The notes under the pieces were generated by a model that ran no database searches, was not told the origin of the DNA, and saw only the letters and a program-made list of their open reading frames with translations. A stretch of 36,597 nt of DNA from a virus, in IMG/VR virus record IMGVR_UViG_3300032053_000238, positions 1 to 36,597 of that record; one strand, written 5' to 3'. The translations under genes and the position numbers were made by a program. Every line of letters begins with the position of its first letter. The first letter of the stretch is position 1. Below, in pieces: positions 1-27,064 of this stretch.

Positions 1-3000
1 TCCGAAAGAACCGGTTTGTACTATTATTTCGGCAGCATTTACGTTGATATATCCGTAAGAACCTGTTTGTGAAACAACTAAACTCCCGGTAATATAAATA
101 TCATGAGTGGTCGCCATATAACTACCAGAATCAGACCATTTTCCATCTCCCGCCGCACCAGAAGTTCCGCTTGTTCCGCTACTACCTCCGGTTCCTGCGG
201 TACCGCTACTACCACCCGTTCCCGCCGTACCCGAAGTTCCGCTACTACCACCGGTTCCGGCTGTACCGCTCGAACCACCGGTTCCAGCAGTTCCGCTTGT
301 TCCGCTACTACCTCCAGTTCCTGCCGTACCAGATGTTCCGCTACTTCCACCCGTTCCAGCAGTTCCGCTCGAACCGCCTGTACCAGCAGTTCCGCTTGAA
401 CCACCTGTACCGGCAGTTCCAGAAGTTCCGCTACTTCCACCAGTTCCTGCGGTTCCGCTTGTTCCACTCGTACCAGATGCCCCCGTTTGTTTTCTCATTA
501 TCTGGCCGCTTCCAGACTCCCAAACTAGTACGTCAATAAGACCTTCGTTGATGCTCATTGTTGAAACATAAAACGCACTCGCCGAAACCATTCCGAAAGA
601 CCCAGACCCAACCACACTAGAAGTATAGGCTTGCAGTTCATTTACACTAAATATATCACCGGCGACTTCTAGATGATTAAATGAACCGGTAGCACTTACA
701 TATAAACTTCCGGTAATATAAACATCATGAGTTGTCGCCAAATAACTTCCAGAGTCACTCCACGAACCAGCCCCGCCAACCCCTGAAGTACCAGATGTTC
801 CGCTACTACCACCTGTGCCAGCAGTTCCGCTGCTACCACCCGTTCCAGCAGTTCCACTTGTTCCGCTGCTACCTCCAGTTCCAGCAGTTCCACTACTACC
901 ACCCGTTCCAGCAGTTCCACTTGTTCCGCTACTACCACCTGTGCCAGCAGTTCCGCTGCTACCACCCGTTCCAGCAGTTCCACTTGTTCCGCTGCTACCT
1001 CCAGTTCCAGCAGTTCCACTACTACCACCCGTTCCAGCAGTTCCGCTTGAACCACCGGTTCCAGCCGTTCCGCTACTACCACCAGTTCCAGCAGTTCCGC
1101 TCGTCCCACTCGTTCCACTAGTACCAGACGCACCGGTCTGTTTTCTCATAATTAAACCGCTACCGCTATCCCAAACCAATACGTCAATAAGACCTTCATT
1201 GATGCTCATTGTGGATAAATAAAATGCGCTACCGGATATTATTCCGAAAGAACCGGTTTGAACAATAATTTCTGTTCCGATAATATCTAAATAACCAAAA
1301 GACCCCGTTGCGGAAGCATATAAACTTCCAGTAATATAAACATCGTGAGTTGTCGCTAAATAACTTCCGCTATTAGCCCATATACTACTTGCAGCATCTA
1401 TTCCAGAAGTTCCGCTGCTACCACCCGTTCCCGCAGTTCCGCTACTACCACCAGTTCCAGCCGTACCAGATGTTCCACTTGAACCACCTGTGCCAGATGT
1501 TCCTGATGTTCCACTACTACCACCTGTGCCAGATGTTCCTGTTGTGCCGCTACTACCGCCAGTTCCAGCAGTACCGCTACTACCGCCAGTTCCAGCAGTA
1601 CCGCTTGTTCCACTACTACCTCCAGTGCCAGCAGTTCCGCTACTACCTCCCGTTCCCGCAGTTCCACTTGTACCAGATGTTCCGGTACCACCACCGTTTA
1701 ATGAATAAGACGCGGTTACGGCGAAAGATGCCGTACCATAGTAATTTGCAGATTTTATTACTCCATTATCATAAACTTCAAATACCGGAACACCCCCAAC
1801 ATCTTTTACGGCGAATAACGAACCTGATAGTCCATCATCAACTTGAAATAAAGTTCCGGCTGAGCCAACAACTTTGAAAACGGTTGAACCTGATTTATAT
1901 ATTTCTACACTTCCAGTAATTTGCACATCATGGGTTGTCGCCAAATAACTTCCCGAATCTTCCCATACTCCAGCACCACCATCGACCCCCGAAGTTCCGC
2001 TACTACCTCCGGTTCCTGCAGTTCCACTAGTTCCGCTACTACCACCAGTTCCAGCAGTACCAGAAGTTCCACTACTACCGCCAGTTCCAGCCGTACCGCT
2101 TGTTCCGCTACTACCTCCAGTTCCAGCAGTCCCGCTTGTACCACTGCTACCGCCAGTTCCTGCAGTACCACTACTGCCTCCAGTTCCAGCCGTTCCAGAA
2201 GTTCCGCTACTACCGCCGGTTCCGGCCGTACCACTAGTCCCATCAGTTCCGCTACTTCCGCCTGTACCTGCGGTACCACTTGTTCCTGAACTGCCACCCG
2301 TACCGGCAGTTCCGCTACTGCCTCCAGTTCCTGCAGTTCCACTAGAACCACCAGTTCCCGCAGTTCCGCTTGTACCACTGCTGCCTCCAGTTCCAGCCGT
2401 ACCGCTTGTACCACTAGTTCCGCTACTTCCTCCAGTCCCTGCCGTACCCGATGTTCCGCTACTTCCACCAGTTCCCGCCGTACCCGATGTTCCGCTAGTT
2501 CCAGACGTTGATGTAGAATATGCGAGATATTCTGCTAATGTAAGGTGATAATACTCATTTGATGAACCGCCTTGCAATCCTGCCAAATTATTATGTAATG
2601 TTATTAACGGTGTTTCAAAACTAGATGCGTGTGTAGTTCCACCGTGCACAAAATAAACCGTTGTCGTATTGTTTGATTGCCCAAACAGAATTTGACCGAT
2701 TTTATCTGTACTGTTTATTGTATATGCTCCCCGAGTTTCTGCTATCGATTTTAATGCATAGTTTGTCGTCAATGCAGTTATTGGCTCAGTTACTATACCA
2801 AATAATCTTTTCCATATTTGATAAGGGGTCGCACTCTCCGTTACATAAGTCGCCGGAACCGTTATTTTTACTAATGTTGAACTCGTATATTGAGTTATCG
2901 GATATAACCCAAAATTAGTTTGGATATAACTACTCCCTGTAATGGACACGGGAGAACCTGTATAACTTGCTGAAAAAGGCAAAGCATCAATTGCATTTAC

Positions 3001-6000
3001 CGTACCAACCGTTCCGCTTCCAGTTATGTTTAATGTTCCAGAACCAGATATTACCTGATATATATTTGAAATTATACGAGATATTCTACCGCCACCCGTA
3101 GAAGACACCGACGTATATATATTAAACGCCCACACTCCAGCATCGAGCGACGTTCTTCCCAAAGCCGTATTGTATAAATATGCTTCGCCAAATACTATAT
3201 TACTAGTACAATTCCAGGAATCTACTGATTCGGTATCCGTTGAAGGCGTTTTTAATAATGTTACAACTTCATTACTGTTATTGTTTCCAGTATCCAAAAT
3301 AACTGGAGAGTCTATATTGTAAAAATATATACCAACAGACCCACCCTGAACAACCGCAGATTTATTTATCCATATATTTCCATTATATCCTAAAAATTGG
3401 TCAATGGTTGGACTTGTTATTGTTACGTCAATTATATCATCAAGTCGCGACGCTTCCCACTTTCTTAGATTGATTTTACCAACCGCCGCATCTTTTACTA
3501 AAACTCTGCCCATTCTTACCACATACGCAGGTGAATCCGGTGCAGTTGTTTGTAATTCACCACTTGCGGTACCGACATATAAAATATCGTTTACATTCCA
3601 CGCAGTAGTATCAAAATCATTTACGTCGCCTCTCGTACAGACATAACCGAGTTGCCCATCTAAAATATCTTCAGTCGCCAATCCGATTGCTCTATAAGAT
3701 TCTGAACCCGTTGTATTGGCAAGTGCTACAGTTCTATATCCACTGGCGACTCCTGTCACATAAACGCATTTACCGTTCGGAATTGTAACACCTGTATTAT
3801 TTAATACACGGTCTAATTCTTCAAATCCAACCTGTAACGTAACGTCTTGACTTCCCAAATCAATCGCAAGAGTTTTGTTATTTGAATCGTAGTATATTTG
3901 ACCGTCGGTATGCGGTAAAGTTCCTGACGTTGTTGTAATAAATCTCAAACCACCGCTTATATTTAACGGTATGGCGACATTTGTACCATTGTCGTATATG
4001 CTACTTGATACTAACGTTGTAGCATTGCTAAACTTTGAAACGTAATTAGCGGTTCCACCAAGTATAGTTCCAGCGCCAGAAGTTCCGCTTGTACCACTAG
4101 TACCGCTACTGCCACCAGTTCCTGCGGTTCCGCTTGTTCCGCTACTACCCCCAGTTCCAGCAGTTCCACTAGTACCGCTACTACCTCCAGTTCCAGCAGT
4201 ACCGCTTGAACCACCTGTACCGGCAGTTCCACTAGTACCGCTACTACCTCCAGTTCCAGCAGTACCGCTTGAACCACCGGTTCCCGCAGTTCCACTTGTA
4301 CCGCTAGTTCCTGAAGTTCCGCTGCTACCTCCAGTTCCAGCAGTACCGCTTGTACCACTACTACCACCCGTTCCAGAAGTTCCACTAGTTCCTGACGCAC
4401 CAGTTGTTTTATATTTTATTACTTTACTACCACTATCCCAAACCAAAACCATATCCAATCCTTCATCGTTTTCTGGCGAATCCATATATAATGAACTCGC
4501 AGAAATCGATCCAAAAACATGAAGTTTAGTAACAGGATTTACGGTTCCGATGCCAACTTGATTTCCTGAAACAAATAACGCAAACTCTCCTTGTCTACCC
4601 ATAACCACAGTATCATTTTCATAAACTTCAAAAATAGAATCTCCTGATATATTTTTAATGGCGAACAAAGAACCTGATAATTCATCATATACTTCAAATA
4701 ATGCTCCTTCCGAGCCAACAACTTTGAATACTAATGAACCAGATTTGTAAATTTGCGTACTTCCAGTGATCTGAACATCTTTTGTCGCAATAATATGAGT
4801 TCCATCATCATAAATGTCTGATATTCCAATACTAGAACTACTATACCATTTAGTAACATAATTTATAGAACCGGTTCCAGTAACAGAACCAGATGCCGAA
4901 GAAAATACCTGATTATCAACATAAGTTTTAATTGCTCTTTCTGTCGGGATTGCCGCATCACTGTTTCCACCTAAAGTTATATCAATAGAAAATTCATCTA
5001 CGGCGACACCATATAATAATCCCAATGAACCTGTAATTTGCACATCATGAATAGTAGCAATATAACTTCCAGAATCTGTCCATATTCCACTCGCACCATC
5101 AATCCCGGAAGTTCCACTTGAACCACCCGTTCCCGCTGTTCCTGACGTTCCGCTACTACCTCCAGTTCCTGCAGTTCCACTAGTACCGCTACTACCTCCA
5201 GTTCCAGCTGTTCCGCTTGAACCGCCTGTGCCTGCCGTACCCGAAGTTCCGCTACTACCTCCAGTTCCAGCAGTTCCACTACTACCACCAGTTCCTGCTG
5301 TACCTGAAGTTCCGCTACTCCCACCGGTTCCGGCCGTACCGCTCGAACCTCCAGTTCCAGCAGTACCGCTCGAACCACCGGTTCCAGCAGTTCCACTTGT
5401 TCCGCTGCTACCACCCGTTCCCGCAGTTCCGCTACTACCACCAGTTCCGGCTGTACCAGATGTTCCGCTACTACCACCCGTTCCAGCAGTTCCGCTACTG
5501 CCTCCAGTTCCGGCAGTACCCGATGTTCCGCTACTACCTCCAGTTCCCGCTGTACCGCTACTACCTCCAGTTCCAGCAGTTCCGCTCGTCCCACTTGAAC
5601 CCCCAGTTCCAGCAGTTCCGCTACTACCGCCAGTTCCAGCAGTTCCGCTTGTTCCACTAGTTCCGCTACTGCCACCAGTTCCCGCGGTACCGCTTGTACC
5701 ACTACTACCGCCAGTTCCAGCAGTTCCGCTTGTTCCACTAGTTCCGCTACTGCCACCAGTTCCCGCGGTACCGCTTGTACCACTACTACCGCCAGTTCCA
5801 GCAGTTCCGCTTGAACCACCGGTTCCAGAAGTCCCACTAGTCCCACTCGCGCCAGAAGTTTTATATTTTATTGCGTTACTACCACTATCCCAAACTAAAA
5901 ATATATCCAACCCCTCATTATTTGCCGGTAAGTTCATATAAAAAGTACTGGCTGATATATTAGTTCCTATTACATAAGTCCCATCATCATAAAGGTTAGA

Positions 6001-7446
6001 TAATCCGATACTAGATGAACTTTCCCATCTAACAATATACCCATAAGAGCCAGAACCAATAACCGATCCCGATGCTGCAGCAAAAACTTGAGTATCAACA
6101 TATGTTTTTACCGCTTTTTCTGTAGGCACAACCTCGTCACTGTTTCCACCTAGAGTAGTATCGGTAGAAAACTCATCTACCGAAACTCCGAATTGTAACC
6201 CCAACGAACCAGTAATCTGTACGGAATGTGAAGTTGCGATATAACTTCCGCTATCTACCCACATACTAGATGCCGCATCAATTCCAGATGTTCCACTTGA
6301 ACCACCAGTACCTGCGGTTCCGCTTGTTCCGCTGCTGCCTCCAGTTCCTGCCGTACCGCTTGAACCGCCAGTACCTGCCGTACCGCTAGTTCCACTCGAA
6401 CCACCGGTTCCCGCAGTTCCGCTTGTTCCGCTACTACCACCCGTTCCAGCAGTTCCGCTACTACCACCAGTTCCCGCAGTTCCACTTGTACCACTTGAAC
6501 CACCCGTTCCCGCAGTTCCGCTACTTCCCCCAGTTCCAGCAGTTCCACTAGTACCGCTACTACCTCCAGTTCCAGCAGTACCGCTGCTACCTCCGGTTCC
6601 TGCAGTTCCACTCGTTCCTGAACTGCCACCCGTTCCAGCAGTTCCGCTTGAACCACCAGTTCCTGCAGTTCCGCTTGTTCCTGAACTACCACCAGTCCCT
6701 GCCGTGCCACTTGAACCACCGGTTCCGGCTGTTCCGCTTGTTCCACTCGTTCCTGAAGTTCCACTATAACTTAATGCATAAGATGCGGTTACGGCGTAAC
6801 TAGAAGTGGCATAAATCGTTCCGGTTGTATACAAACTTCCAGTAATTCGTATGTCGCCCTCGTGAGTAATAGAACCATCCGCACTACCAGTCCAAACTCC
6901 ACCTGCTCCCAAAGTTTCATCTAATGTACTACCAACGTATTGAAACACATTTACTTTATATGGTCGCGGATAAGAACCACTACCAGGATCGGCGACATGA
7001 AGAATACCGGTTTTATAATCAAATATCCAATGTATATTATCGGCTTTATAAATTTGACTTCCACTTGCATCATATAATTCAACTTCATAATCTGCGCCAT
7101 ATTTATCACCTATAAAATTGGCTTGAAACAAACTGGCCGAACCTGCGGCAGTCAAATCTCCGGCAGAAAGAGATGATGTTCCGGGAGTAAATTCGGCGCC
7201 AGATACGAAATAAAACGCGTATGTTGGAAAGGTTGGATCCGCCGTCAAAATAAATTGATTGTGAAAAACGGCCACCCCCTGTAATATTGCACTAGCCGAA
7301 TCAGCGGAAACGGTATCCGTCCAAACTTCTCTATAATTTACATTAAGAGTATCAGCACCAACTTCCTGATAGAAGTTTCGTTGATTAGTAGTAAATTTTT
7401 TATTGATAAGAATCTTAAAACTCTTATCGGTCTTATCAATAGCCAA
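1..7446 (-). CDS. Giant collagen-like tail-fibre protein (3' end beyond window)
   Basis: The frame is open from a TTG start at 7446 to position 1, giving at least 2482 residues without a stop; the C-terminus lies outside. The TTG (MAIDKTDKSFKI) sits behind AAGGAG, which overlaps the stop of the preceding fibre gene. Residues 1-225 are a unique N-terminal domain, probably the virion-attachment end. After that, seven Gly-x-y arrays made of GTS, GTA, GTG and GSS triplets alternate with beta-rich modules. Recurrent module motifs are WxDSGSYxATxHDxxITGSL, LFEVxDxLSGSLFAIK, VLVWDSGS..I..K(Q/T)TGASG and an LGGNSD..(I/V)PTE(K/R)A(V/I)KTYVD motif. About 520 non-repeat residues (nt 2510-4070) include GLQGGSSNEYYHLT, a motif common in phage fibres. 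No proline occurs in the array triplets, so a collagen fold is inferred only from Gly periodicity. It is probably a long tail fibre or whisker. Confidence 0.85.
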   Translation of the reverse strand, partial: MAIDKTDKSFKILINKKFTTNQRNFYQEVGADTLNVNYREVWTDTVSADSASAILQGVAVFHNQFILTADPTFPTYAFYFVSGAEFTPGTSSLSAGDLTAAGSASLFQANFIGDKYGADYEVELYDASGSQIYKADNIHWIFDYKTGILHVADPGSGSYPRPYKVNVFQYVGSTLDETLGAGGVWTGSADGSITHEGDIRITGSLYTTGTIYATSSYAVTASYALSYSGTSGTSGTSGTAGTGGSSGTAGTGGSSGTSGTAGTGGSSGTAGTGGSSGTSGTAGTGGSSGTAGTGGSSGTSGTAGTGGSSGTAGTGGSSGTSGTAGTGGSSGTAGTGGSSGTSGTAGTGGSSGTSGTAGTGGSSGTAGTGGSSGTSGTAGTGGSSGTSGIDAASSMWVDSGSYIATSHSVQITGSLGLQFGVSVDEFSTDTTLGGNSDEVVPTEKAVKTYVDTQVFAAASGSVIGSGSYGYIVRWESSSSIGLSNLYDDGTYVIGTNISASTFYMNLPANNEGLDIFLVWDSGSNAIKYKTSGASGTSGTSGTGGSSGTAGTGGSSGTSGTAGTGGSSGTSGTSGTAGTGGSSGTSGTAGTGGSSGTSGTSGTAGTGGSSGTAGTGGSSGTSGTAGTGGSSGTAGTGGSSGTSGTAGTGGSSGTAGTGGSSGTSGTAGTGGSSGTAGTGGSSGTSGTAGTGGSSGTAGTGGSSGTAGTGGSSGTSGTAGTGGSSGTAGTGGSSGTSGTAGTGGSSGTAGTGGSSGTSGTAGTGGSSGTSGTAGTGGSSGTSGIDGASGIWTDSGSYIATIHDVQITGSLGLLYGVAVDEFSIDITLGGNSDAAIPTERAIKTYVDNQVFSSASGSVTGTGSINYVTKWYSSSSIGISDIYDDGTHIIATKDVQITGSTQIYKSGSLVFKVVGSEGALFEVYDELSGSLFAIKNISGDSIFEVYENDTVVMGRQGEFALFVSGNQVGIGTVNPVTKLHVFGSISASSLYMDSPENDEGLDMVLVWDSGSKVIKYKTTGASGTSGTSGTGGSSGTSGTAGTGGSSGTSGTSGTSGTAGTGGSSGTAGTGGSSGTSGTAGTGGSSGTAGTGGSSGTSGTAGTGGSSGTSGTAGTGGSSGTSGTSGTSGAGTILGGTANYVSKFSNATTLVSSSIYDNGTNVAIPLNISGGLRFITTTSGTLPHTDGQIYYDSNNKTLAIDLGSQDVTLQVGFEELDRVLNNTGVTIPNGKCVYVTGVASGYRTVALANTTGSESYRAIGLATEDILDGQLGYVCTRGDVNDFDTTAWNVNDILYVGTASGELQTTAPDSPAYVVRMGRVLVKDAAVGKINLRKWEASRLDDIIDVTITSPTIDQFLGYNGNIWINKSAVVQGGSVGIYFYNIDSPVILDTGNNNSNEVVTLLKTPSTDTESVDSWNCTSNIVFGEAYLYNTALGRTSLDAGVWAFNIYTSVSSTGGGRISRIISNIYQVISGSGTLNITGSGTVGTVNAIDALPFSASYTGSPVSITGSSYIQTNFGLYPITQYTSSTLVKITVPATYVTESATPYQIWKRLFGIVTEPITALTTNYALKSIAETRGAYTINSTDKIGQILFGQSNNTTTVYFVHGGTTHASSFETPLITLHNNLAGLQGGSSNEYYHLTLAEYLAYSTSTSGTSGTSGTAGTGGSSGTSGTAGTGGSSGTSGTSGTAGTGGSSGTSGTAGTGGSSGTAGTGGSSGTAGTGGSSGTSGTAGTGGSSGTDGTSGTAGTGGSSGTSGTAGTGGSSGTAGTGGSSGTSGTAGTGGSSGTSGTAGTGGSSGTSGTAGTGGSSGTSGTAGTGGSSGTSGVDGGAGVWEDSGSYLATTHDVQITGSVEIYKSGSTVFKVVGSAGTLFQVDDGLSGSLFAVKDVGGVPVFEVYDNGVIKSANYYGTASFAVTASYSLNGGGTGTSGTSGTAGTGGSSGTAGTGGSSGTSGTAGTGGSSGTAGTGGSSGTTGTSGTGGSSGTSGTSGTGGSSGTSGTAGTGGSSGTAGTGGSSGTSGIDAASSIWANSGSYLATTHDVYITGSLYASATGSFGYLDIIGTEIIVQTGSFGIISGSAFYLSTMSINEGLIDVLVWDSGSGLIMRKQTGASGTSGTSGTSGTAGTGGSSGTAGTGGSSGTAGTGGSSGTAGTGGSSGTSGTAGTGGSSGTAGTGGSSGTSGTAGTGGSSGTAGTGGSSGTSGTAGTGGSSGTAGTGGSSGTSGTSGVGGAGSWSDSGSYLATTHDVYITGSLYVSATGSFNHLEVAGDIFSVNELQAYTSSVVGSGSFGMVSASAFYVSTMSINEGLIDVLVWESGSGQIMRKQTGASGTSGTSGTAGTGGSSGTSGTAGTGGSSGTAGTGGSSGTAGTGGSSGTSGTAGTGGSSGTSGTAGTGGSSGTAGTGGSSGTSGTAGTGGSSGTAGTGGSSGTSGTSGAAGDGKWSDSGSYMATTHDIYITGSLVVSQTGSYGYINVNAAEIIVQTGSFG
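166..483 (-). repeat. Gly-Thr-Ser array G (collagen-like, in-gene)
   Basis: About 106 codons of imperfect G-T-S, G-T-A, G-T-G and G-S-S triplets. The array follows the module ending IMRKQTGA and precedes AAGDGKWSDSGSYMATTHD. Confidence 0.9.
781..1134 (-). repeat. Gly-Thr-Ser array F, with a 126-bp tandem duplication
   Basis: About 118 codons of Gly-x-y triplets. A 122-bp stretch at 797-918 is repeated exactly at 923-1044 (period 126 bp, 42 codons, in frame), showing recent in-frame expansion. Confidence 0.9.
1402..1689 (-). repeat. Gly-Thr-Ser array E
   Basis: About 96 codons of Gly-x-y triplets, preceded in the protein by TASYSLNGGG and followed by IDAASSIWANSGSYLATTHD. It contains some variant GTT and GTS triplets. 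Confidence 0.9.
1987..2502 (-). repeat. Gly-Thr-Ser array D
   Basis: About 172 codons of Gly-x-y triplets, preceded by LAEYLAYSTSTSG and followed by VDGGAGVWEDSGSYLATTHD. It occasionally has GTD in place of GTS. Confidence 0.9.
4075..4401 (-). repeat. Gly-Thr-Ser array C
   Basis: About 109 codons of Gly-x-y triplets, preceded by VIKYKTTGAS and followed by GAGTILGGTANYVSKFSN, which opens the long non-repeat domain. Confidence 0.9.
5104..5853 (-). repeat. Gly-Thr-Ser array B (longest), with an 81-bp tandem duplication
   Basis: About 250 codons of Gly-x-y triplets, the longest array here. The 112-bp stretch 5621-5732 recurs exactly at 5702-5813 (period 81 bp, 27 codons, in frame; the copies overlap). 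Confidence 0.9.
6283..6765 (-). repeat. Gly-Thr-Ser array A
   Basis: About 161 codons of Gly-x-y triplets; the first array after the N-terminal domain. It is preceded by SSYAVTASYALSYSG, which is nearly identical to the sequence before the array of the neighbouring fibre gene. Confidence 0.9.
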
Positions 7447-18698: not shown

Positions 18699-19388
18699 TC
18701 AATCGAAGGCACCTTCCGGCCCCATACGAGCTATGTCCCAACTAGCAACTTCCAGTGCTCTCATTACCTTTCGGTATACTACCAGTAAGTCTAAAAGTTC
18801 CTTTGCCTCCTTAAAAGTTTTGGCGAAATAAAAATTAAACCTATCATATAAATAAGTATCATTATTTATTTCTATTATATAATATATTTTATCCGTACTA
18901 CTAAATAAAAGTTTCCCCGGAACATTTTTTATATTCTTCGTATCAGTTTTGCATTTACGACTATCCATAAAATTACTAATAAGTTTTACTGCTTTTTCAG
19001 CATCTTCTTTTGTTTTTATTATTTTAACGTTCACTTTTGGAAGAGGCTTTATATTATTCGGAGGCATTATCTTAAAATATTCTTCATAGTTTTTTCCGTA
19101 ATCTCTGGCGTTAATATACTGTTTTCCTTTGGTATAAACGTCGCCAAAAACTTTCTTGAACTCGGCGACGATCTTATCAAAGTTTTTTATACCATCCCAT
19201 CGATCTATTACGACTATTCCGTGCCCTATGTTTATTTTTGTTTCGTCTTCCAACTCAACATCTAATCTATCATTTTTAATTTTCTTTTTAGGTAATGAAA
19301 TACCAATTATGCGCCCGATAAGAGAATAAATGTTTTTAATATCTTGGTCGGAGAATTGTTCAGTAATCAATCTTTTTAGTTTAATCAT
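18699..19388 (-). CDS. Unknown protein with predicted capsid-targeting leader (229 aa)
   Basis: ATG at 19388 behind AAGGTGATAGA. The leader MIKLKRLITE|Q is the same tag found on eight or more proteins further upstream; a cut after E10 would match an (L/I)-x-E prohead-protease site. The body is Lys-rich. VELEDETKINIGHGIVVIDR, KNFDKIVAEFKKVFGDVY and a C-terminal ALEVASWDIARMGPEGAFD are visible, with no motif I recognise. The gene lies just after the terminator of the 581-aa gene, so it is the tagged gene separated from the main cluster. No promoter is evident in the short gap; readthrough or reinitiation may express it. Confidence 0.8.
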   Translation of the reverse strand: MIKLKRLITEQFSDQDIKNIYSLIGRIIGISLPKKKIKNDRLDVELEDETKINIGHGIVVIDRWDGIKNFDKIVAEFKKVFGDVYTKGKQYINARDYGKNYEEYFKIMPPNNIKPLPKVNVKIIKTKEDAEKAVKLISNFMDSRKCKTDTKNIKNVPGKLLFSSTDKIYYIIEINNDTYLYDRFNFYFAKTFKEAKELLDLLVVYRKVMRALEVASWDIARMGPEGAFD

Positions 19389-21306: not shown

Positions 21307-21729
21307 TCAATACAAAACACTCTTAACAAAAATCAGTTTTGGATTTTTATGTTTAATTTTCGCCACATAATCGTCTATATACGGCATCAACTTATCGATA
21401 TACTCGTCGCCAACCGAATCACTCAAATAAAACCTATTAGTATCTCCGTATCTCATCCACGGTATGTATCCTTTTTTAACGGCGAAAAACACTCCTTTAT
21501 GAGTATCAAACCCAGAAATCTTAAAGTATTTATGCGCTAATTCATAATGGTTGGGTATATTGGAGTCCACAATATAAAGGTCGCCGTTTGGAAAACTCAA
21601 TCCGCGAGTTTCTTTCGGTAAAAAAGATATTTTTGTCGGATTTTTGTATACCCCGACATCCGCCTGTTCATATGTTGAGTATAAATACCCATCCAATTCT
21701 TCACTTAATATTTTTTTTAATCTGATCAC
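21307..21729 (-). CDS. Leader-tagged paralogous protein, member 1 (140 aa)
   Basis: GTG start at 21729 overlapping the TGA of the CCA-enzyme gene (GTGA), so translation is coupled. The leader MIRLKKILSE|E matches the shared tag. The body is a paralogue of the 143-aa protein at 23161-23592 and the frameshifted gene at 25285-25735. Shared elements are SFPNGDLYIVDSN, a KKGYIPWxRxG box, FYLSDS and a C-terminal KHKNPKLIFVKSVLY. Predicted alpha/beta fold, no catalytic residues I can name. It is the last gene of the main tagged operon before the independent 581-aa unit. Function unknown; packaging in the head is inferred from the tag only. Confidence 0.85.
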   Translation of the reverse strand: MIRLKKILSEELDGYLYSTYEQADVGVYKNPTKISFLPKETRGLSFPNGDLYIVDSNIPNHYELAHKYFKISGFDTHKGVFFAVKKGYIPWMRYGDTNRFYLSDSVGDEYIDKLMPYIDDYVAKIKHKNPKLIFVKSVLY

Positions 21730-23168
21730 TTCATCACTCCATCATATGCACGTTTCACAATCGCGAGCGCTTCTTTTTTCGTTATGTTCGGATTCTCAAA
21801 CCACGCCGTTTCTACCTGTTTTAATAATTGACCGATTATCGGTCCTGGTTTATTTATTTTCAAGTATTTCATCACATCGTTTCCGTCTATCGGCAATTTC
21901 GGTTTCGTCGGTTCTTTTTCCAGTGATTTTAACCGATCTTTTATCTTTGAAACCTGGAGAGGCATATTATATTCTTCTGCGTGCGCAATATTGTCGGCAG
22001 CAATAAGATCAAGTGTTGTGCGTAAATGGTCGCCCAATTCCGCTTTTAACTTTCGTATTGCCTTATCAGTAACCAGTTCGGCTTCTTTTCCAAATCCTTT
22101 TGTGCGCATATGGTTTCGTACAGTTGTTACTACCGCTTTTATTATGTCGTTTGGATAGCGTAATCTTTGTAAAATCTTTTCGGTCATATCAGCAGAAATT
22201 TCTTCGTGCTCCCAGAAAGTTATTTCGCCGTTAATAACTTTTTTTGCCGTTGCCTTGCCTATATCGTGAAACAGAGCCGACAGACGAGTTATCAGTTCAG
22301 GCGGAGTATTTTTCAGCACTTCCAGAGTGTGGCGCATCGCATCCACTTTGTGAAATTTATTTTGTTCCAAACCGCGCAAGCCGTCCAACTCCGCGGCGAC
22401 ATACTTATTCAGTCCAGTTATTTGCAGAAGGCGAATTGCTTTATCGGGATATTGAGTAACTAACATTTTACTGATCTCATCCCGTATTCTTTCTTCTGAA
22501 ATAGTTTTCAGCATATGCGCATTCCTTTTTAATGCTTTTATCATAAACATCGGTAGTTGCCAGTTATATTTTACAGTAAAACGTATCGCTCGAAGCATTC
22601 GTAGCGGATCATCGCGAAAAATAATGTCTGGATCGAGCGGTGTGCGAACGATTCCCTTCTTTATATCACTTTTGCCCATTCCCGTAAGGTCAAGTATTTC
22701 GCCAGTAGTTAAATCTTTTAATAAGCTATTTACAGTAAAATCCCGACGTTCCACATCGTCTTTGAGTGTGCCTGGGGCGACATCCGGCTTTCGGCTACCA
22801 AAGTGATATTGTTCTTTGCGCGTCATAACTACTTCCACAGAAATATCTGATAAATCGTAACCGCGATGTTTTATTCCGTTTAGTTTTAATGCGGCAGTTC
22901 CGAATGTCGGAAATATTACTGGATTGCTATCTTTTTTGTAGATTCCGAGTTCTTTTGTTAGCCACTCAGCAAACTGTATTCCACCTTGCGGAAGCTCCAC
23001 GACCAAATCCAGATCTTTTATATCCAGACCGAGTAATTCATCGCGAACCGCGCCACCTGCTAAAAAAACTTTTCCGCGAAACTTTGATTTCTTAATCAGC
23101 CCGGAAATCAAATCTAATGCGGCGCTTTCCTTAGCGCCTTCTAATAATAGTTGTTTTAGTTTAATCAT
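21726..23168 (-). CDS. CCA-adding enzyme / poly(A) polymerase family protein with HD domain and capsid-targeting leader (480 aa)
   Basis: ATG at 23168, sharing ATGATTAA with the stop of the previous gene. The leader is MIKLKQLLLE|G. A complete class II nucleotidyltransferase follows: FLAGGAVRDELLG (GGAVRD 38-43), metal-binding D52-L-D54, RRDFTVNS (141-148) and RDDPLRMLRAIRF (185-197). An HD-type domain then has H280, H301-D302 (FHDIGK) and H321. The C-terminus (GPIIGQLLKQVETAWFENPN) is the usual body and tail element. The family adds CCA to tRNA 3' ends or A tails to RNA; the two cannot be told apart here, though the HD domain resembles the E. coli-type CCA enzyme. The leader is absent from ordinary members of the family and suggests packaging in the head. 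Confidence 0.92.
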   Translation of the reverse strand: MIKLKQLLLEGAKESAALDLISGLIKKSKFRGKVFLAGGAVRDELLGLDIKDLDLVVELPQGGIQFAEWLTKELGIYKKDSNPVIFPTFGTAALKLNGIKHRGYDLSDISVEVVMTRKEQYHFGSRKPDVAPGTLKDDVERRDFTVNSLLKDLTTGEILDLTGMGKSDIKKGIVRTPLDPDIIFRDDPLRMLRAIRFTVKYNWQLPMFMIKALKRNAHMLKTISEERIRDEISKMLVTQYPDKAIRLLQITGLNKYVAAELDGLRGLEQNKFHKVDAMRHTLEVLKNTPPELITRLSALFHDIGKATAKKVINGEITFWEHEEISADMTEKILQRLRYPNDIIKAVVTTVRNHMRTKGFGKEAELVTDKAIRKLKAELGDHLRTTLDLIAADNIAHAEEYNMPLQVSKIKDRLKSLEKEPTKPKLPIDGNDVMKYLKINKPGPIIGQLLKQVETAWFENPNITKKEALAIVKRAYDGVMK

Positions 23169-23592
23169 ATATGCTCTTCACTATAAAATTATATTGCGGA
23201 TTTTTTGCGTTTGTTTTTTTCGCGTATTTTTTTATTGCGGAAATTACTTCATGCGCATCAAACGGATACATCCCCAACACATACGATTCGCCTAAATAAA
23301 AATCTTTGGAATTTCCTTTTCTCGCCCATGAAATGTATCCGCGTTCGGTAATCTTGGCTAATCCATCGGTGCCGTAACTTTCCGGTATTTTATATCCTTT
23401 TTTTTGTAAAAATGCGGCAATATCGTTATGCATTACATCATTACTATCAATCACAAATAAGTTACCGTCCGGATCGCTTATTGCTCGTAAATTATCTTCC
23501 ATACGAGATATTGATATCGGATTTTTAAACACTTCATATCCTCTAATTCTACCGATAAGATCTTCTTTTAATAAATTTTTAAGTTTTATCAT
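23161..23592 (-). CDS. Leader-tagged paralogous protein, member 2 (143 aa)
   Basis: ATG at 23592, one base after the previous stop; its own stop lies within ATGATTAA, the start of the CCA-enzyme gene. The leader is MIKLKNLLKE|D. The body follows the family pattern: NPISISRMEDNLRAISDPDG, NLFVIDSND, KITERGYISWARKGNSKDFY, LGES and a C-terminal KKYAKKTNAKNPQYNFIVKS. Closest relative in the window is the frameshifted gene at 25285-25735, then the 140-aa protein. Function not recognised. The presence of three copies in one operon argues for duplication and divergence of a cargo protein. Confidence 0.87.
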   Translation of the reverse strand: MIKLKNLLKEDLIGRIRGYEVFKNPISISRMEDNLRAISDPDGNLFVIDSNDVMHNDIAAFLQKKGYKIPESYGTDGLAKITERGYISWARKGNSKDFYLGESYVLGMYPFDAHEVISAIKKYAKKTNAKNPQYNFIVKSIYD

Positions 23593-23593
23593 T

Positions 23594-24010
23594 TTACTTT
23601 ATTTTAATATATACCGCTTCGCCCATCCTATTAACATTTAATGTCGCAAACCCATTTTTTACTAACCATATTAACTGATGTGATATATCCCTTCCAATAA
23701 AATATACCAAAATCCATACCGGAATATATTTGAACGGAGACTCAGAACCCAAAACATACTTATAAATATTTTTAATATCCCTTAATTCTTCTTGTGTCGG
23801 TTCTGTACCGGACGTTATCCTTGTATTTCTCGGTATATTAGGTAATCTCTCATCTTCGCCTCGTAATGGAAACTGATATGCTTTTTTATTTCCATAATTA
23901 ATCAAACGAGAATTCTCCTTTTGGAATTTGGTTTTGGGTTTATGTCTTTTACTATATTCTTCGCAATCAGAATAAAAATCTTCTCTTATTAATCTTTTAA
24001 GTTTAATCAT
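23594..24010 (-). CDS. Leader-tagged protein of unknown function (138 aa)
   Basis: ATG at 24010 inside ATGATTAA, which also ends the kinase gene (8-base overlap). The leader is MIKLKRLIRE|D. The middle is basic and polar (KRHKPKTKFQKENSRL). The C-terminal part, PVWILVYFIGRDISHQLIWL then VKNGFATLNVNRMGEAVYIK, looks like helices followed by a two-stranded wing, so a small winged-helix fold is possible but unproven. No catalytic motif. The tag and the coupled position place it with the other predicted packaged proteins. Confidence 0.8.
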   Translation of the reverse strand: MIKLKRLIREDFYSDCEEYSKRHKPKTKFQKENSRLINYGNKKAYQFPLRGEDERLPNIPRNTRITSGTEPTQEELRDIKNIYKYVLGSESPFKYIPVWILVYFIGRDISHQLIWLVKNGFATLNVNRMGEAVYIKIK

Positions 24011-24836
24011 GTTTTAATTTTCTCTTTAAAAAGAATTTATAATCATTTATCAATTTCCAAGTTCCTTTAATCGGCGAAGAACCCGTGGATTCCCACTTAA
24101 AGTGCATCAACCTATCAACTACCCCGTCAGATTTTTGCCCTTCACTTTTATAATCATTATACGCCTTATCCATCTGAGTTGCATAATTTAAAATCACATT
24201 TTCGCCTACCCCGCGACCTTGAGTATTTTTTCTCCACACATCGCGCTCAATTGCCAGATTGACATCTATATCCAAATATATGACGGTATTGTTAAATTTA
24301 TTTTGCTTAGTTCTAACTAATTTTTGTATAATACTATTGGAATGTGTCGCAGTCGTATCAATAACTAAAAGATTACCCGCTTCCACAATTTTTGTATCAA
24401 ACATTTTTGTTGTTAAAGATTGCGCCGCATCTCGTATATCAAAATAAGTTGAATAAAACCCTTTATAAAAAGTTTTATAAAAATATCTCAATCCTTTATT
24501 TTTATTGTTTTCCCACCACTCATACGTTATAGGCATCCTAACTTCGGTATCATTATTATTTATGTATTTGGAATCGTTTATAAATTTATTCAAATCTTCG
24601 TTGGATTTTATATTATCAGTCATCCAATTATATTGATTTTTGGCGTGTTGATATTGCGCAGCGATAACTTGAATATCAGATGCGCTTACCTTATATCCAG
24701 CAAAACTTGAAATATATCTTTGCACTTCGTTGTTGATAAAAGTAGATTTTCCGGCAGCGGGTAGCCCCATAAGAACGACGCATTGTTTCATCAAATCTTC
24801 TTTAAATTCAAAGTATATCTTTTTAAGTTTTATCAT
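24003..24836 (-). CDS. Zeta-toxin/polynucleotide-kinase-like P-loop kinase with leader (277 aa)
   Basis: ATG at 24836 in an ATGA overlap with the metallopeptidase gene. The leader MIKLKKIYFE|F is a looser form of the tag. KQCVVLMGLPAAGKSTF follows (Walker A, residues 24-32). Later GNLLVIDTTATHS is a Walker B-like strand, and VIYLDIDVNLAIERDVWRKN followed by TQGRGVGENVI forms the Arg-containing lid typical of zeta toxins and T4 Pnk-type kinases. Residues about 60-120 are an insert (SKYINNNDTEV, YEWWENNKNKGLRYF). The family phosphorylates either nucleotide sugars (zeta) or nucleic-acid ends (Pnk); the sequence alone does not decide. No phosphatase domain. Packaging in the head is inferred from the leader. 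Confidence 0.8.
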   Translation of the reverse strand: MIKLKKIYFEFKEDLMKQCVVLMGLPAAGKSTFINNEVQRYISSFAGYKVSASDIQVIAAQYQHAKNQYNWMTDNIKSNEDLNKFINDSKYINNNDTEVRMPITYEWWENNKNKGLRYFYKTFYKGFYSTYFDIRDAAQSLTTKMFDTKIVEAGNLLVIDTTATHSNSIIQKLVRTKQNKFNNTVIYLDIDVNLAIERDVWRKNTQGRGVGENVILNYATQMDKAYNDYKSEGQKSDGVVDRLMHFKWESTGSSPIKGTWKLINDYKFFLKRKLKHD

Positions 24837-25288
24837 ATTTTCATTCTTTTTTTAATTTGGTCGCCAGAAGTTTTTTCAAATTCATCGAGCGACACTTTCC
24901 AATGAATCTTAAAATATTTTTTAACTAAATCCGCGGCGCGGAAAAAATGATATTTTCTAAGCAGGAGATACCCACCATAATCCGCTTCTTTTTCTTGACG
25001 CGATTGCCAAGTAATATTGTGTTTAAGTAAATGATGCGCTATTTCATGCGCTTCAATAAATCTAATAGTATCTTCTGATGTATTATCAAGCTCTTCGCCA
25101 TCAACTATTATAATCGGCTTATCAGGAAGAGTTGCAGCAATATCCTTATCACCGATAAAACTTTTTAATTCTTCATATTTCGGATGCGCCTTGAAAACGA
25201 CAACTATATTATATCGTTTATCTATTTGCCCGTTAAATGAAACTATATCTTTAGTTTCTTCTTTTATCATATTTTTAAGTTTTATCAT
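24833..25288 (-). CDS. Zinc metallopeptidase (HEIAHH) with leader (151 aa)
   Basis: ATG at 25288, overlapping the ancestral stop of the frameshifted upstream gene. The leader is MIKLKNMIKE|E. The catalytic motif AHEIAHHLLKH gives H81, E82 and H85. Eleven residues past that motif, EKEADYGGYLLL supplies the probable third zinc ligand (E101) in the E-A-D form used by ImmA/IrrE-type and related gluzincin peptidases. It is small for a peptidase and has no signal peptide or membrane segment. ImmA-like enzymes cut repressors; if this one is delivered with the DNA it could act on a host regulator or defence protein, but the target is speculation. Confidence 0.85.
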   Translation of the reverse strand: MIKLKNMIKEETKDIVSFNGQIDKRYNIVVVFKAHPKYEELKSFIGDKDIAATLPDKPIIIVDGEELDNTSEDTIRFIEAHEIAHHLLKHNITWQSRQEKEADYGGYLLLRKYHFFRAADLVKKYFKIHWKVSLDEFEKTSGDQIKKRMKI

Positions 25289-25735
25289 CGTATCGACTCA
25301 AGAATAAAATTGTATTGCGGATTTTTTGCTTTAACCTTTTTTGCATATTTTTTATATAAGGCATAAGTTTTTTGCTAGTAAAATATGGTAAATCTTCTCT
25401 ATCAAGTTCTACGGATTCTGATAAAAAAACGAATTGGCTCTACCGTTTCTTTGCCATGGAATATACCCCCGCTTAATTTGTTCCGCTAATTCTCCTAGCG
25501 TATTTCCAACGGGAGTTGAATATCCGTGTTTATTTAACCAGTTCGCAAAATGGGTGTGAATCACATCCCAGTTATCATCTATCACGAATAAGTCGCCGTT
25601 GGGAAAACTTATTGCGCGTAAATCTTCCACCATTCTGGATATTGATTTCGGGTTCTTAAATATTTGGTTTCTGCCCGGATCCGTTCCGTAATATCCAATA
25701 AGTTCTTCTTTTAATAAATCTTTTAGTTTTATCAT
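25285..25735 (-). pseudogene. Leader-tagged paralogue, member 3, broken by two homopolymer frameshifts
   Basis: ATG at 25735 opens a 108-residue frame with leader MIKLKDLLKE|E that follows the 143-aa paralogue (FKNPKSISRMVEDLRAISFP, NGDLFVIDDN, KRGYIPWQRNGRANSFF) and stops at 25409. The missing C-terminus is present in other frames. A one-base loss in the run of seven A (25423-25429, plus strand) interrupts SFFLSESVELDRED. A second one-base loss in the run of six T (25348-25353) interrupts LMPYIKKYAKK. After both corrections the frame ends NPQYNFILESIR at a TGA overlapping the next gene's ATG, exactly as intact neighbours do. Either recent decay or sequencing error at homopolymers. Confidence 0.8.
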
Positions 25736-25736
25736 T

Positions 25737-26651
25737 TTATTCGCCAGTATGATTTATCAACGCTAAAATTCTTTTTCGCCAGCTAATTAGTTTGTCTTTA
25801 TATTTTCTTTTCAATGGTTCTTCAAATTCTTCTTGTCCGGGATCATCAACTTCTACGGAAAAAGATTCCGGCATCTGAAATCCTTGCGGCGCATCTCGCA
25901 TAGTATTTGACGATTCGTTTATTAAATTTTTTAATTTGATGGTATTGTCGCCCAAACCTTTACGAGTTCTAAAACGAGTTGCGACAGGTAATTCACCGGA
26001 TTTCGCACCCGGAACTTTATGACGAGAACCTGCGCCGTAAGGAACTGCAACACTTTTCTTTTTCATCGGCGACAACATATGTTGTATTTCCTTTCCAACT
26101 TGTTTTTCGCTTCCGATATATTCGTCTACTGGAATGAACTTAATTTTGCCACCCGCTTTTGCAACCGTTGTAGCATTCCAGGCCACCCACCCCGCAGCTT
26201 CTGGAGAATCATACCCGAATAAAGTTTCCGGTGCTTCATACTTTCCTTTTTTATCAATCACTTCAATTTTCCAATCTTTAAGATTTCCCATCGGGGTACC
26301 GAGTTTTTTAATATCTCTCATAACTTTCTGCAATTCATATTTTGGCGGGTATTCCCAGAAAGAAATAACTTTTCTTCTCAACCATACTCTTCCAGGATAT
26401 TTATACATATTCCGGCTCCATTCGTGGTCGGATAAATAATTATCCATCGGCAATCTTTTTTCTGGTGGGATGCTCCAATGAAGAGTGGTATGATTTCCTT
26501 TGCGTTCAATATACATTTTTCCGTTATAATAACCGAAAACATATGAATCATCGTCATTCCACGACAGATTTTCCATGTATTCAAACTCATCTTTAACCGC
26601 CGGCATATAGGCGTTATCAGGATTTTCTAGCAGTAATTTTTTTAATCTCAT
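25737..26651 (-). CDS. Two-leader fusion protein of unknown function (304 aa)
   Basis: ATG at 26651, five bases after the previous stop. The N-terminal tag is the shortened MRLKKLLLE|N. Residues 10-230 form a compact domain with VFGYYNGKMYIERKGNHTTL, WSIPPEKRLPMDNYLSDHEW, RVWLRRKVISFWEYPP and DKKGKYEAPETLFGYDSPEA, all unrecognised. At about residue 237 a second tag occurs inside the protein (NTIKLKNLINE|S), followed by a short acidic tail with EVDDPGQEEFEEPLKRKYKD. The ATG expected for a separate gene is replaced by ACC. This looks like two tagged genes fused in frame; cleavage at both L-x-E/I-x-E sites would release two polypeptides. Function of either part is unknown. Confidence 0.8.
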   Translation of the reverse strand: MRLKKLLLENPDNAYMPAVKDEFEYMENLSWNDDDSYVFGYYNGKMYIERKGNHTTLHWSIPPEKRLPMDNYLSDHEWSRNMYKYPGRVWLRRKVISFWEYPPKYELQKVMRDIKKLGTPMGNLKDWKIEVIDKKGKYEAPETLFGYDSPEAAGWVAWNATTVAKAGGKIKFIPVDEYIGSEKQVGKEIQHMLSPMKKKSVAVPYGAGSRHKVPGAKSGELPVATRFRTRKGLGDNTIKLKNLINESSNTMRDAPQGFQMPESFSVEVDDPGQEEFEEPLKRKYKDKLISWRKRILALINHTGE

Positions 26652-26656
26652 TTATT

Positions 26657-27064
26657 TTATTGCCCGATTTTCAGTTCAGTTAAAAATGCTTTCAATAATC
26701 TCAGATCTTCTTTACCTTCAAATGGCTGGGAAACCGCATTTCGTTCTTTGTCCGCAATCCATCCGTACTCAGCCGTAAAAGAAGCACACATGGAGACATA
26801 AACTACTTTATTTTTTTCGCCTTCATATGTTTCTTTGGTTAAATCTAAAACATATTTTTTATTATCATCAGATTTCCATTTCCATTGCGCAAGAAGTTTG
26901 GTTACTCCCTCTATAAATGATCTTTGAAATGACTTCGCAAAAGTCAATTCATTATTTGCGAAGGGCAAAGTTTTTCCTTTATGAATGTGATTTCTTTTTA
27001 ATATCGCGGCTTCGGATAATTTCTTTCCCTCGGTTAAAAATTGCTTCCATTTGTTGTCTTTCAT
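26657..27064 (-). CDS. Protein of unknown function with variant leader (135 aa)
   Basis: ATG at 27064 in an ATGA overlap with the 221-aa gene. The N-terminus MKDNKWKQFLTE|GKKLSEA keeps the K-x-x-F-L-x-E end of the tag and is closer to T4 internal-protein leaders (MKTYQEFIxEA) than the other tags here. The body contains KSFQRSFIEGVTKLLAQWKW, YVLDLTKETYEGEKNKVVYV and EDLRLLKAFLTELKIGQ: an alpha/beta protein without a motif I recognise. Tight coupling with its neighbours puts it in the same operon and probably the same role. Confidence 0.78.
   Translation of the reverse strand: MKDNKWKQFLTEGKKLSEAAILKRNHIHKGKTLPFANNELTFAKSFQRSFIEGVTKLLAQWKWKSDDNKKYVLDLTKETYEGEKNKVVYVSMCASFTAEYGWIADKERNAVSQPFEGKEDLRLLKAFLTELKIGQ

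Follow-up and report, generated by a model that had tools for sequence, protein, structure and literature searches.

An internal copy of an N-terminal tag in a far-T4-type phage protein suggests a two-module head cargo polyprotein

The protein P0001 (304 residues; Table 1) is encoded on a 36.6-kb IMG/VR fragment of a far-T4-type myovirus (36,597 nucleotides in all, here called the window) and carries the same short tag twice, once at its N-terminus and once within the chain. We consider it quite probable, from sequence comparison, that P0001 is a two-module polyprotein with a tag before each module, and that it is cut in trans by a gp21-type head protease. Judged by its relatives, the fusion in P0001 is one case of a widespread arrangement and not a one-off. 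An initial annotation of this DNA had called the protein possibly self-separating; the separation proposed here would instead be carried out in trans by the head protease.

The tail sheath encoded in the window is 59–60% identical to those of three other IMG/VR contigs. Its best annotated relatives are the sheaths of Microcystis phage Mel-JY01 and Flavobacterium phage immuto, with that of Rhodothermus phage RM378 more distant. Nine genes of the window, that of P0001 among them, start with a tag of the form M-I-K-L-K-x-L-[LI]-x-E, and this N-terminal stretch of ∼10 residues is common to non-homologous proteins that include a CCA enzyme, a kinase, and a metallopeptidase. The tags are hydrophobic at positions 4 and 7, have Leu or Ile (Tyr once) at position 8, and Glu at position 10. 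The capsid targeting sequence of T4 consists of the first 10 residues, of which positions 4 and 7 serve in targeting and positions 8 and 10 in processing (PMC9026906). At nine residues, the N-terminal tag of P0001 falls one short of the 10-residue MIKLKxLLxE found in the neighbouring genes. The gene upstream of P0001 (window positions 26657–27064) starts with MKDNKWKQFLTE↓G (the arrow marks a predicted cut), a variant tag that has the same LxE end and is without IKLK. Three of the tagged genes are paralogues that encode domain B (KNPKSI...NGDLFVID).

Table 1. Features of P0001 and the other tagged genes of the window (positions are those of the window; ↓, predicted cut)
Feature	Position	Strand	Support
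P0001 gene: tag, domain A, internal tag, C-terminal module	25737..26651	-	full-length 288-aa homologue, 37% identity, L083/L090
N-terminal tag MRLKKLLLE, residues 1–9, predicted cut E9↓N10	26625..26651	-	profile score 19.8; E9 invariant in 36/36 aligned copies
Domain A, ∼residues 10–231, globular	25959..26624	-	HMM match, 168.7 bits; AlphaFold2
Internal tag T237-IKLKNLINE-246, Thr (ACC) in place of Met	25914..25943	-	score 21.2; codons; model linker
Predicted scissile bond E246↓S247	25911..25916	-	[LI]xE↓S in all known carriers of the C-terminal module
C-terminal module, residues 247–304, ending in a predicted 32-residue helix	25740..25913	-	separate tagged gene L002; AlphaFold2
Tagged neighbour MIKLKDLLKE, domain B, start 1 base past the P0001 stop	25409..25735	-	tag; domain B also inside the L093 polyprotein
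Tagged gene MIKLKNMIKE, M78/M48-like metallopeptidase	24833..25288	-	
Tagged gene MIKLKKIYFE, P-loop kinase (weak polynucleotide-kinase match)	24003..24836	-	
Tagged gene MIKLKRLIRE, no assigned product	23594..24010	-	
Tagged gene MIKLKNLLKE, domain B	23161..23592	-	
Tagged gene MIKLKQLLLE, tRNA nucleotidyltransferase (CCA-adding type)	21726..23168	-	phrog_2244, 5e-57; PF01743
Tagged gene MIRLKKILSE, domain B, GTG start	21307..21729	-	
Tagged gene MIKLKRLITE, no assigned product	18699..19388	-	

By virtue of their tags, the CCA-adding enzyme and the P-loop kinase are presumably packaged; a possible reading of these two enzymes and of the chains of relatives is that they could form RNA-repair and NAD-related cargo delivered at infection. 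Among the relatives, an NMN-adenylyltransferase-like domain occurs together with a region that matches DarB-like proteins in the chain encoded by L160:14761–17556. Elsewhere in the window, positions 78–6764 hold overlapping long low-complexity ORFs on both strands (VAELLE/PPVPAVPLV-type repeats) alongside GSSGTSGT-like fibre-gene repeats, and most of these ORFs probably result from reading the gene of a single long repetitive fibre protein in the wrong frame.

A second tag devoid of its Met had been noted at about residue 237 of P0001, and our analysis confirms it. The sequence NTIKLKNLINE spans residues 236–246, and ACC stands at the position of the lost start codon. Scored with a profile of the window's nine N-terminal tags, the internal tag reaches 21.2 bits and thus exceeds one of the true N-terminal tags (19.8 bits), whereas the best score in 200 shuffles of the proteome was 17.0 bits and the runner-up internal window of the real proteome reached only 11.9 bits. 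The corresponding chance is ∼2.5e-8 per position and ∼2e-4 across the whole proteome of the window. P0001 contains exactly two [LI]xE motifs in its 304 residues, at residues 9 and 246, both of them tag ends, where ∼3 are expected at random.

Were the internal sequence simply an ordinary conserved helix of domain A that resembles a tag by chance, the strong conservation of the upstream RKGLGD in one branch of the domain A family would be accounted for, but a score so far beyond chance would not. In addition, a second domain A gene on the contig of L089 retains RKGLGD and has no tag, most copies of domain A are without this segment, and the sequence past the tag differs from phage to phage. We give this reading next to no probability, and the module swaps and the stand-alone gene with its own tag, both described below, refute it. 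Because RKGLGD occurs without the tag in the second gene beside L089, it belongs to the domain A side and the tag to the module that follows; for the same reason a Shine-Dalgarno-like AAAGG in the RKGLGD codons was dropped as a candidate. A scan of IMG/VR with KGLGDxxIK returned mostly unrelated chance matches and is informative only for the relatives of P0001 and the L137/L145 pair.

In an AlphaFold2 model of P0001 (built with 36 sequences; mean pLDDT of 71), domain A is predicted with confidence (pLDDT ∼85–93 over most of residues 30–50 and 80–180). The internal tag is located in a low-confidence linker (pLDDT 56–59) between this globular domain and a separate helix (residues 271–302) of the C-terminal module. 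The position of the tag in this linker makes the predicted cleavage site look accessible. Of the cut proposed in the initial annotation, the Glu-Ser junction at the end of NTIKLKNLINE stands, whereas the numbering (Ser248) was off by one.

A single-sequence search with P0001 against phage records and IMG/VR gave zero matches, and the first homologue was identified by searching the full records that had supplied the tail-sheath matches. This full-length homologue (G002/G003; 288 aa, 37% identity) reads RKGLGDGVIKISTLI-E↓SSRN where P0001 reads RKGLGDNTIKLKNLINE↓SSN. Homologues had been suggested as the place to look for a single conserved domain that lacks any likeness to the tag; in the nearest single-ORF homologue (L083), the internal tag is instead weaker and aligns with a gap of one residue (IKISTLI-ESS), and IKISTLIE↓SS is kept, with Leu at P3, Glu at P1, and Ser at P1′. 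Four other continuations follow the same RKGLGD-tag site, in L089, L137 (two sites), and L166. In L089, RKGLGDGLIKLKPLLLE↓S precedes ∼305 residues unrelated to the C-terminal module of the window. The order in L137 is MKLKKLLRE↓NPD-domain A-RKGLGDGTIKLGELLLE↓NPD-domain A-RKGLGDGVIRFKDLIRE↓third module, on a 168-kb contig that carries the same tagged cassette (kinase, CCA enzyme, and two domain B genes). In L166, on a 293-kb contig, KKGLGDNI-MKLKNLIKE↓KKD leads into another short module, and the internal tag keeps its ATG.

This retained ATG is what would be expected if a second product arose from internal translation initiation at the second tag, with no proteolysis. At the Met positions of the internal tags of the window, L083, L089, and L137, however, the codons are ACC, GTT, TTA, ACA, and GTA, none of which is a usual start, so internal initiation is no general explanation and we regard it as very improbable. 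The ATG of L166, together with a lone tagged gene in L002 (see below), favours fusion over fission as the origin of these chains.

The C-terminal module of P0001 exists as a gene of its own. A profile of residues 247–304 and the homologue identified a 63-aa ORF (L002:5695–5886; E = 7.5e-21) that reads MKSVKKNINE↓SSNIPTTKPIGTPRGKSSYMKTDGVSDLPKSWESKLIYWRKMIQKMIGYEVLE, such that its own 10-residue tag terminates in I-N-E at precisely the same residue as the internal tag of P0001 does. The contig of L002 carries the tail sheath most similar to that of the window, and a terminator-like hairpin (seen by eye and unscored) lies ahead of the ORF. This is the only stand-alone gene for the module that was found, on one contig. 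A further profile scan located the module in L165 behind an unrelated N-terminal domain, at the joint SESIIKE↓SNN. The residues E-S-S are invariant in the alignment of the module, and [LI]xE↓S marks its start in every known carrier (LINE↓SSN, TLIE↓SSR, NINE↓SSN, and IIKE↓SNN).

Cleavage at the internal tag might alternatively release the 58-residue C-terminal piece as a propeptide that aids docking or folding and is then discarded, with no second cargo. T4 Alt and gp21 are also processed at their C-termini (PMC9026906), and the piece is short and consists mostly of one predicted helix and disorder. Against this role, the same piece is an independent tagged gene in L002, albeit on one contig, it is joined to an unrelated partner in L165, and clearly larger modules occupy the same site in other phages (L089 and L137). 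We therefore consider a discarded propeptide unlikely and retain the reading of two cargo modules.

Domain A yielded no match in Pfam, PHROG, or NCBI PDB sequences, and a fold search of PDB and BFVD gave nothing better than E 0.7. Searches of annotated phages with three other seeds were likewise without a match at E up to 0.1–10; a match to Synechococcus phage B23 was too weak (E 0.9) and was set aside. An alignment-based scan, from which the family was built, recovered 82 IMG/VR stretches with domain A, in one to six copies per ORF. Stand-alone domain A genes occur in L089 (1642–2337), L106, L108, L111, L112, L113, and L116. Separate genes for the two halves of P0001, which the initial annotation had proposed to look for in related phages, are thus found both for domain A (for example in L089, L108, and L112) and for the C-terminal module (L002). 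With the boundary between the halves also serving as a swap point, the proposal that two tagged cargo genes had fused is well supported by the sequences.

On many contigs, copies of domain A form tandem arrays linked by short [LI]xE↓(S/N)P linkers. The 1,582-aa ORF L093 is composed of six copies of domain A, one domain B, and one further module, with linkers such as APFESYYPRLNE↓SPD and a drifted junction, YYPRLNE↓SPD. In L100, a nucleotidyltransferase is followed by a tag-like IKQLLLE, then by domain A, and last by a module that matches the C-terminal half of a Mel-JY01 protein. L100 and its homologue in G071 differ by an entire domain A, and this difference is bounded exactly by VMTE↓S and LLIE↓GG; at the equivalent junction, the cytidylyltransferase-ligase protein (L161) of Mel-JY01, the nearest cultured relative found with such a junction, reads IIAE↓GG.

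Several further arrangements were observed in this family. L182:3900–6900 (and also L183–L186) is a tandem array of domain A whose reading frame contains 21 TGA codons in 3 kb but neither TAA nor TAG, and TGA falls on the conserved Trp of ISFW-YP; the phages concerned therefore probably read TGA as Trp. The junctions of this array are LLTE↓DPD, IITE↓NPD, VLKE↓TPD, VLNE↓NPD, and TLIE↓HPD. A different type of tag occurs twice in one chain in L205:3899–5977, as ITKAQLEEVRNHLNE↓SPD at the start and as ITKEQLNEINKHLEEE internally, where it precedes a module that is a separate gene elsewhere. Many small head-region genes of L129–L131 start with a similar QLRxLI-type tag. In L108:556–6916, neighbouring genes beside a domain A gene share the N-terminal motif M-I-V-x-E-S-[LI]-x-F-x-R-G-x-D-P, which is possibly another type of tag.

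The residues ahead of domain A were compared in 87 non-redundant copies, with the P-D pair, rather than Glu, as the anchor; because this set includes related sequences, its counts are descriptive and do not represent independent trials. The residue before the domain (P1) is Glu in 83/87 copies, P3 is Leu or Ile in 74/87 (Met in another 7), and either Ser or Asn occupies P1′ in 69/87; P4 is free and P2 is broader. As domain A itself starts with E(S/N)PD, part of the conservation of Glu could be structural. Ahead of varied downstream modules, [LI]xE is present at 13/13 junctions, a count that is descriptive since these sites were hand-picked as junctions. The P1/P3 pattern of the domain A copies and the tags of the window match the processing determinants of T4 gp21. 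In T4, Asp in place of the Glu ahead of the cut stops processing and leaves targeting intact.

These residues also bear on whether P0001 might remain uncut, with domain A and the C-terminal module forming one two-part protein and the internal tag persisting as a fossil of the fusion or as a second core-docking signal. Both parts remain fused in two diverged lineages (37% identity), and a role in docking would agree with the still recognisable I, K, L, and K at the remaining tag positions of P0001. However, drifted tags keep the processing residues P3 and P1 and not the docking ones (TLIE↓S in L083; YYPRLNE↓SPD in L093), and the linker is unstructured in the AlphaFold2 model. An uncut protein seems to us quite unlikely, and cleavage at the internal tag is the reading that we carry forward.

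The window is a fragment with no head genes, and a gp21-type (S77) prohead protease is absent from its 36.6 kb; the phage's own protease is thus not seen there. A PF03420 (gp21-family, S77) protease is encoded on the contigs of L089, L100, L137, and L145, among others, and a gp21-type protease is present on those of the close relatives G051, G071, and G072 and of G058. The gp21-family proteases of the relatives themselves have [LI]xE↓S near the N-terminus. Alignment of the capsid protein to T4 gp23, which locates the cut only approximately, shows [LI]xE at residues 55 and 64, where the T4-equivalent position is ∼50.

Given that the modules occur separately or in longer chains in related phages, the phage probably makes one chain that is cut by the head protease, and separation of the P0001 modules by this enzyme is likely. 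From the T4 register of the tags and the gp21-family protease of the relatives, we propose that the N-terminal tag would dock the chain on the prohead core and that the gp21-type protease (serine peptidase family S77) would cut in trans after Glu9 and Glu246 during head maturation. Cleavage would yield domain A, with a short linker attached, and the C-terminal module of 58 residues, packaged as separate proteins that would then be ejected into the host; that the chain is packaged, cut, and ejected, and what either module does, we infer from the comparisons above. Such a chain probably originated through in-frame joining of neighbouring tagged genes, upon which the second tag lost its start codon and became a linker. 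In older-looking arrays, the junctions retain P3 and P1 and lose the rest of the tag, a loss that would fit docking by the first tag alone. On balance, we lean towards a broader picture in which this uncultivated T4-related lineage stores its head cargo as polyproteins. The tags would serve as universal separators between which cargo genes fuse, multiply, and swap, and the maturation protease would resolve chains of up to ∼8 units in the prohead, leading to a fixed ratio of injected cargo.

If this model is correct, head cargo could be read from sequence, as anything that follows [LI]xE at a tag would be a packaged protein, and the separators would give precise boundaries of the cargo. Many injected effectors would thereby be exposed, domain A (over 80 contigs and no known fold) being one example.

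The closest parallel is provided by the internal head proteins of T4. IPI–IPIII and Alt, like the proteins of the window, bear a 10-residue N-terminal tag on unrelated proteins, with hydrophobic residues at positions 4 and 7, [LI]xE at 8–10 followed by a small residue, and a gp21-family protease (found here in relatives). In T4 there is one tag, at the N-terminus of one protein (PMC9026906), whereas here tags also separate two to ∼8 modules within a chain; this use of the tag inside the chain is the difference from the loading and trimming of T4 internal proteins. The far-T4 phages (RM378-like; Roux et al., PMC4360716) are related to the window through the tail sheath, which groups with those of Mel-JY01, immuto, and RM378; the words protease, internal, fusion, and polyprotein are absent from the text of that article. 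No description of tag-separated head cargo was found in the open-access literature, which is weak evidence as subscription papers mostly fell outside this scope. The head proteins of phiKZ and SPN3US are similarly cut after Glu at a short motif, and SPN3US prefers Ser at P1′ (PMC5694885, PMC10052503). SPN3US differs in that its motif is AxE and in that the mapped cuts remove N-terminal propeptides and one C-terminal piece of the protease, with no multiple mature products.

The polyvalent proteins (PMC5512222) likewise place many effector-like domains in one chain delivered by the head or with the DNA, and Iyer et al. (2017) liken them to viral polyproteins. The N-terminal region of the G071 chain matches DarB-like/PLxRFG polyvalent proteins, and by sequence a multi-domain architecture of the polyvalent type fits L100, L107, and G071, while P0001 has just two modules. 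As in viral polyproteins, modules encoded together in one ORF also occur as genes of their own (L002 and stand-alone domain A). Processing of polyvalent proteins is proposed to be carried out chiefly by embedded metallopeptidases and in a few cases by C-terminal assemblin-like peptidases (PMC5512222). In contrast, Pfam identifies no peptidase domain in P0001 or the domain A arrays, and the repetition of targeting and cleavage tags suggests that cutting is done in trans by the head maturation protease. Should the predicted cuts take place, the chains would represent a phage version of the polyprotein strategy in which the protease is supplied by the maturing head and is not embedded in the chain.
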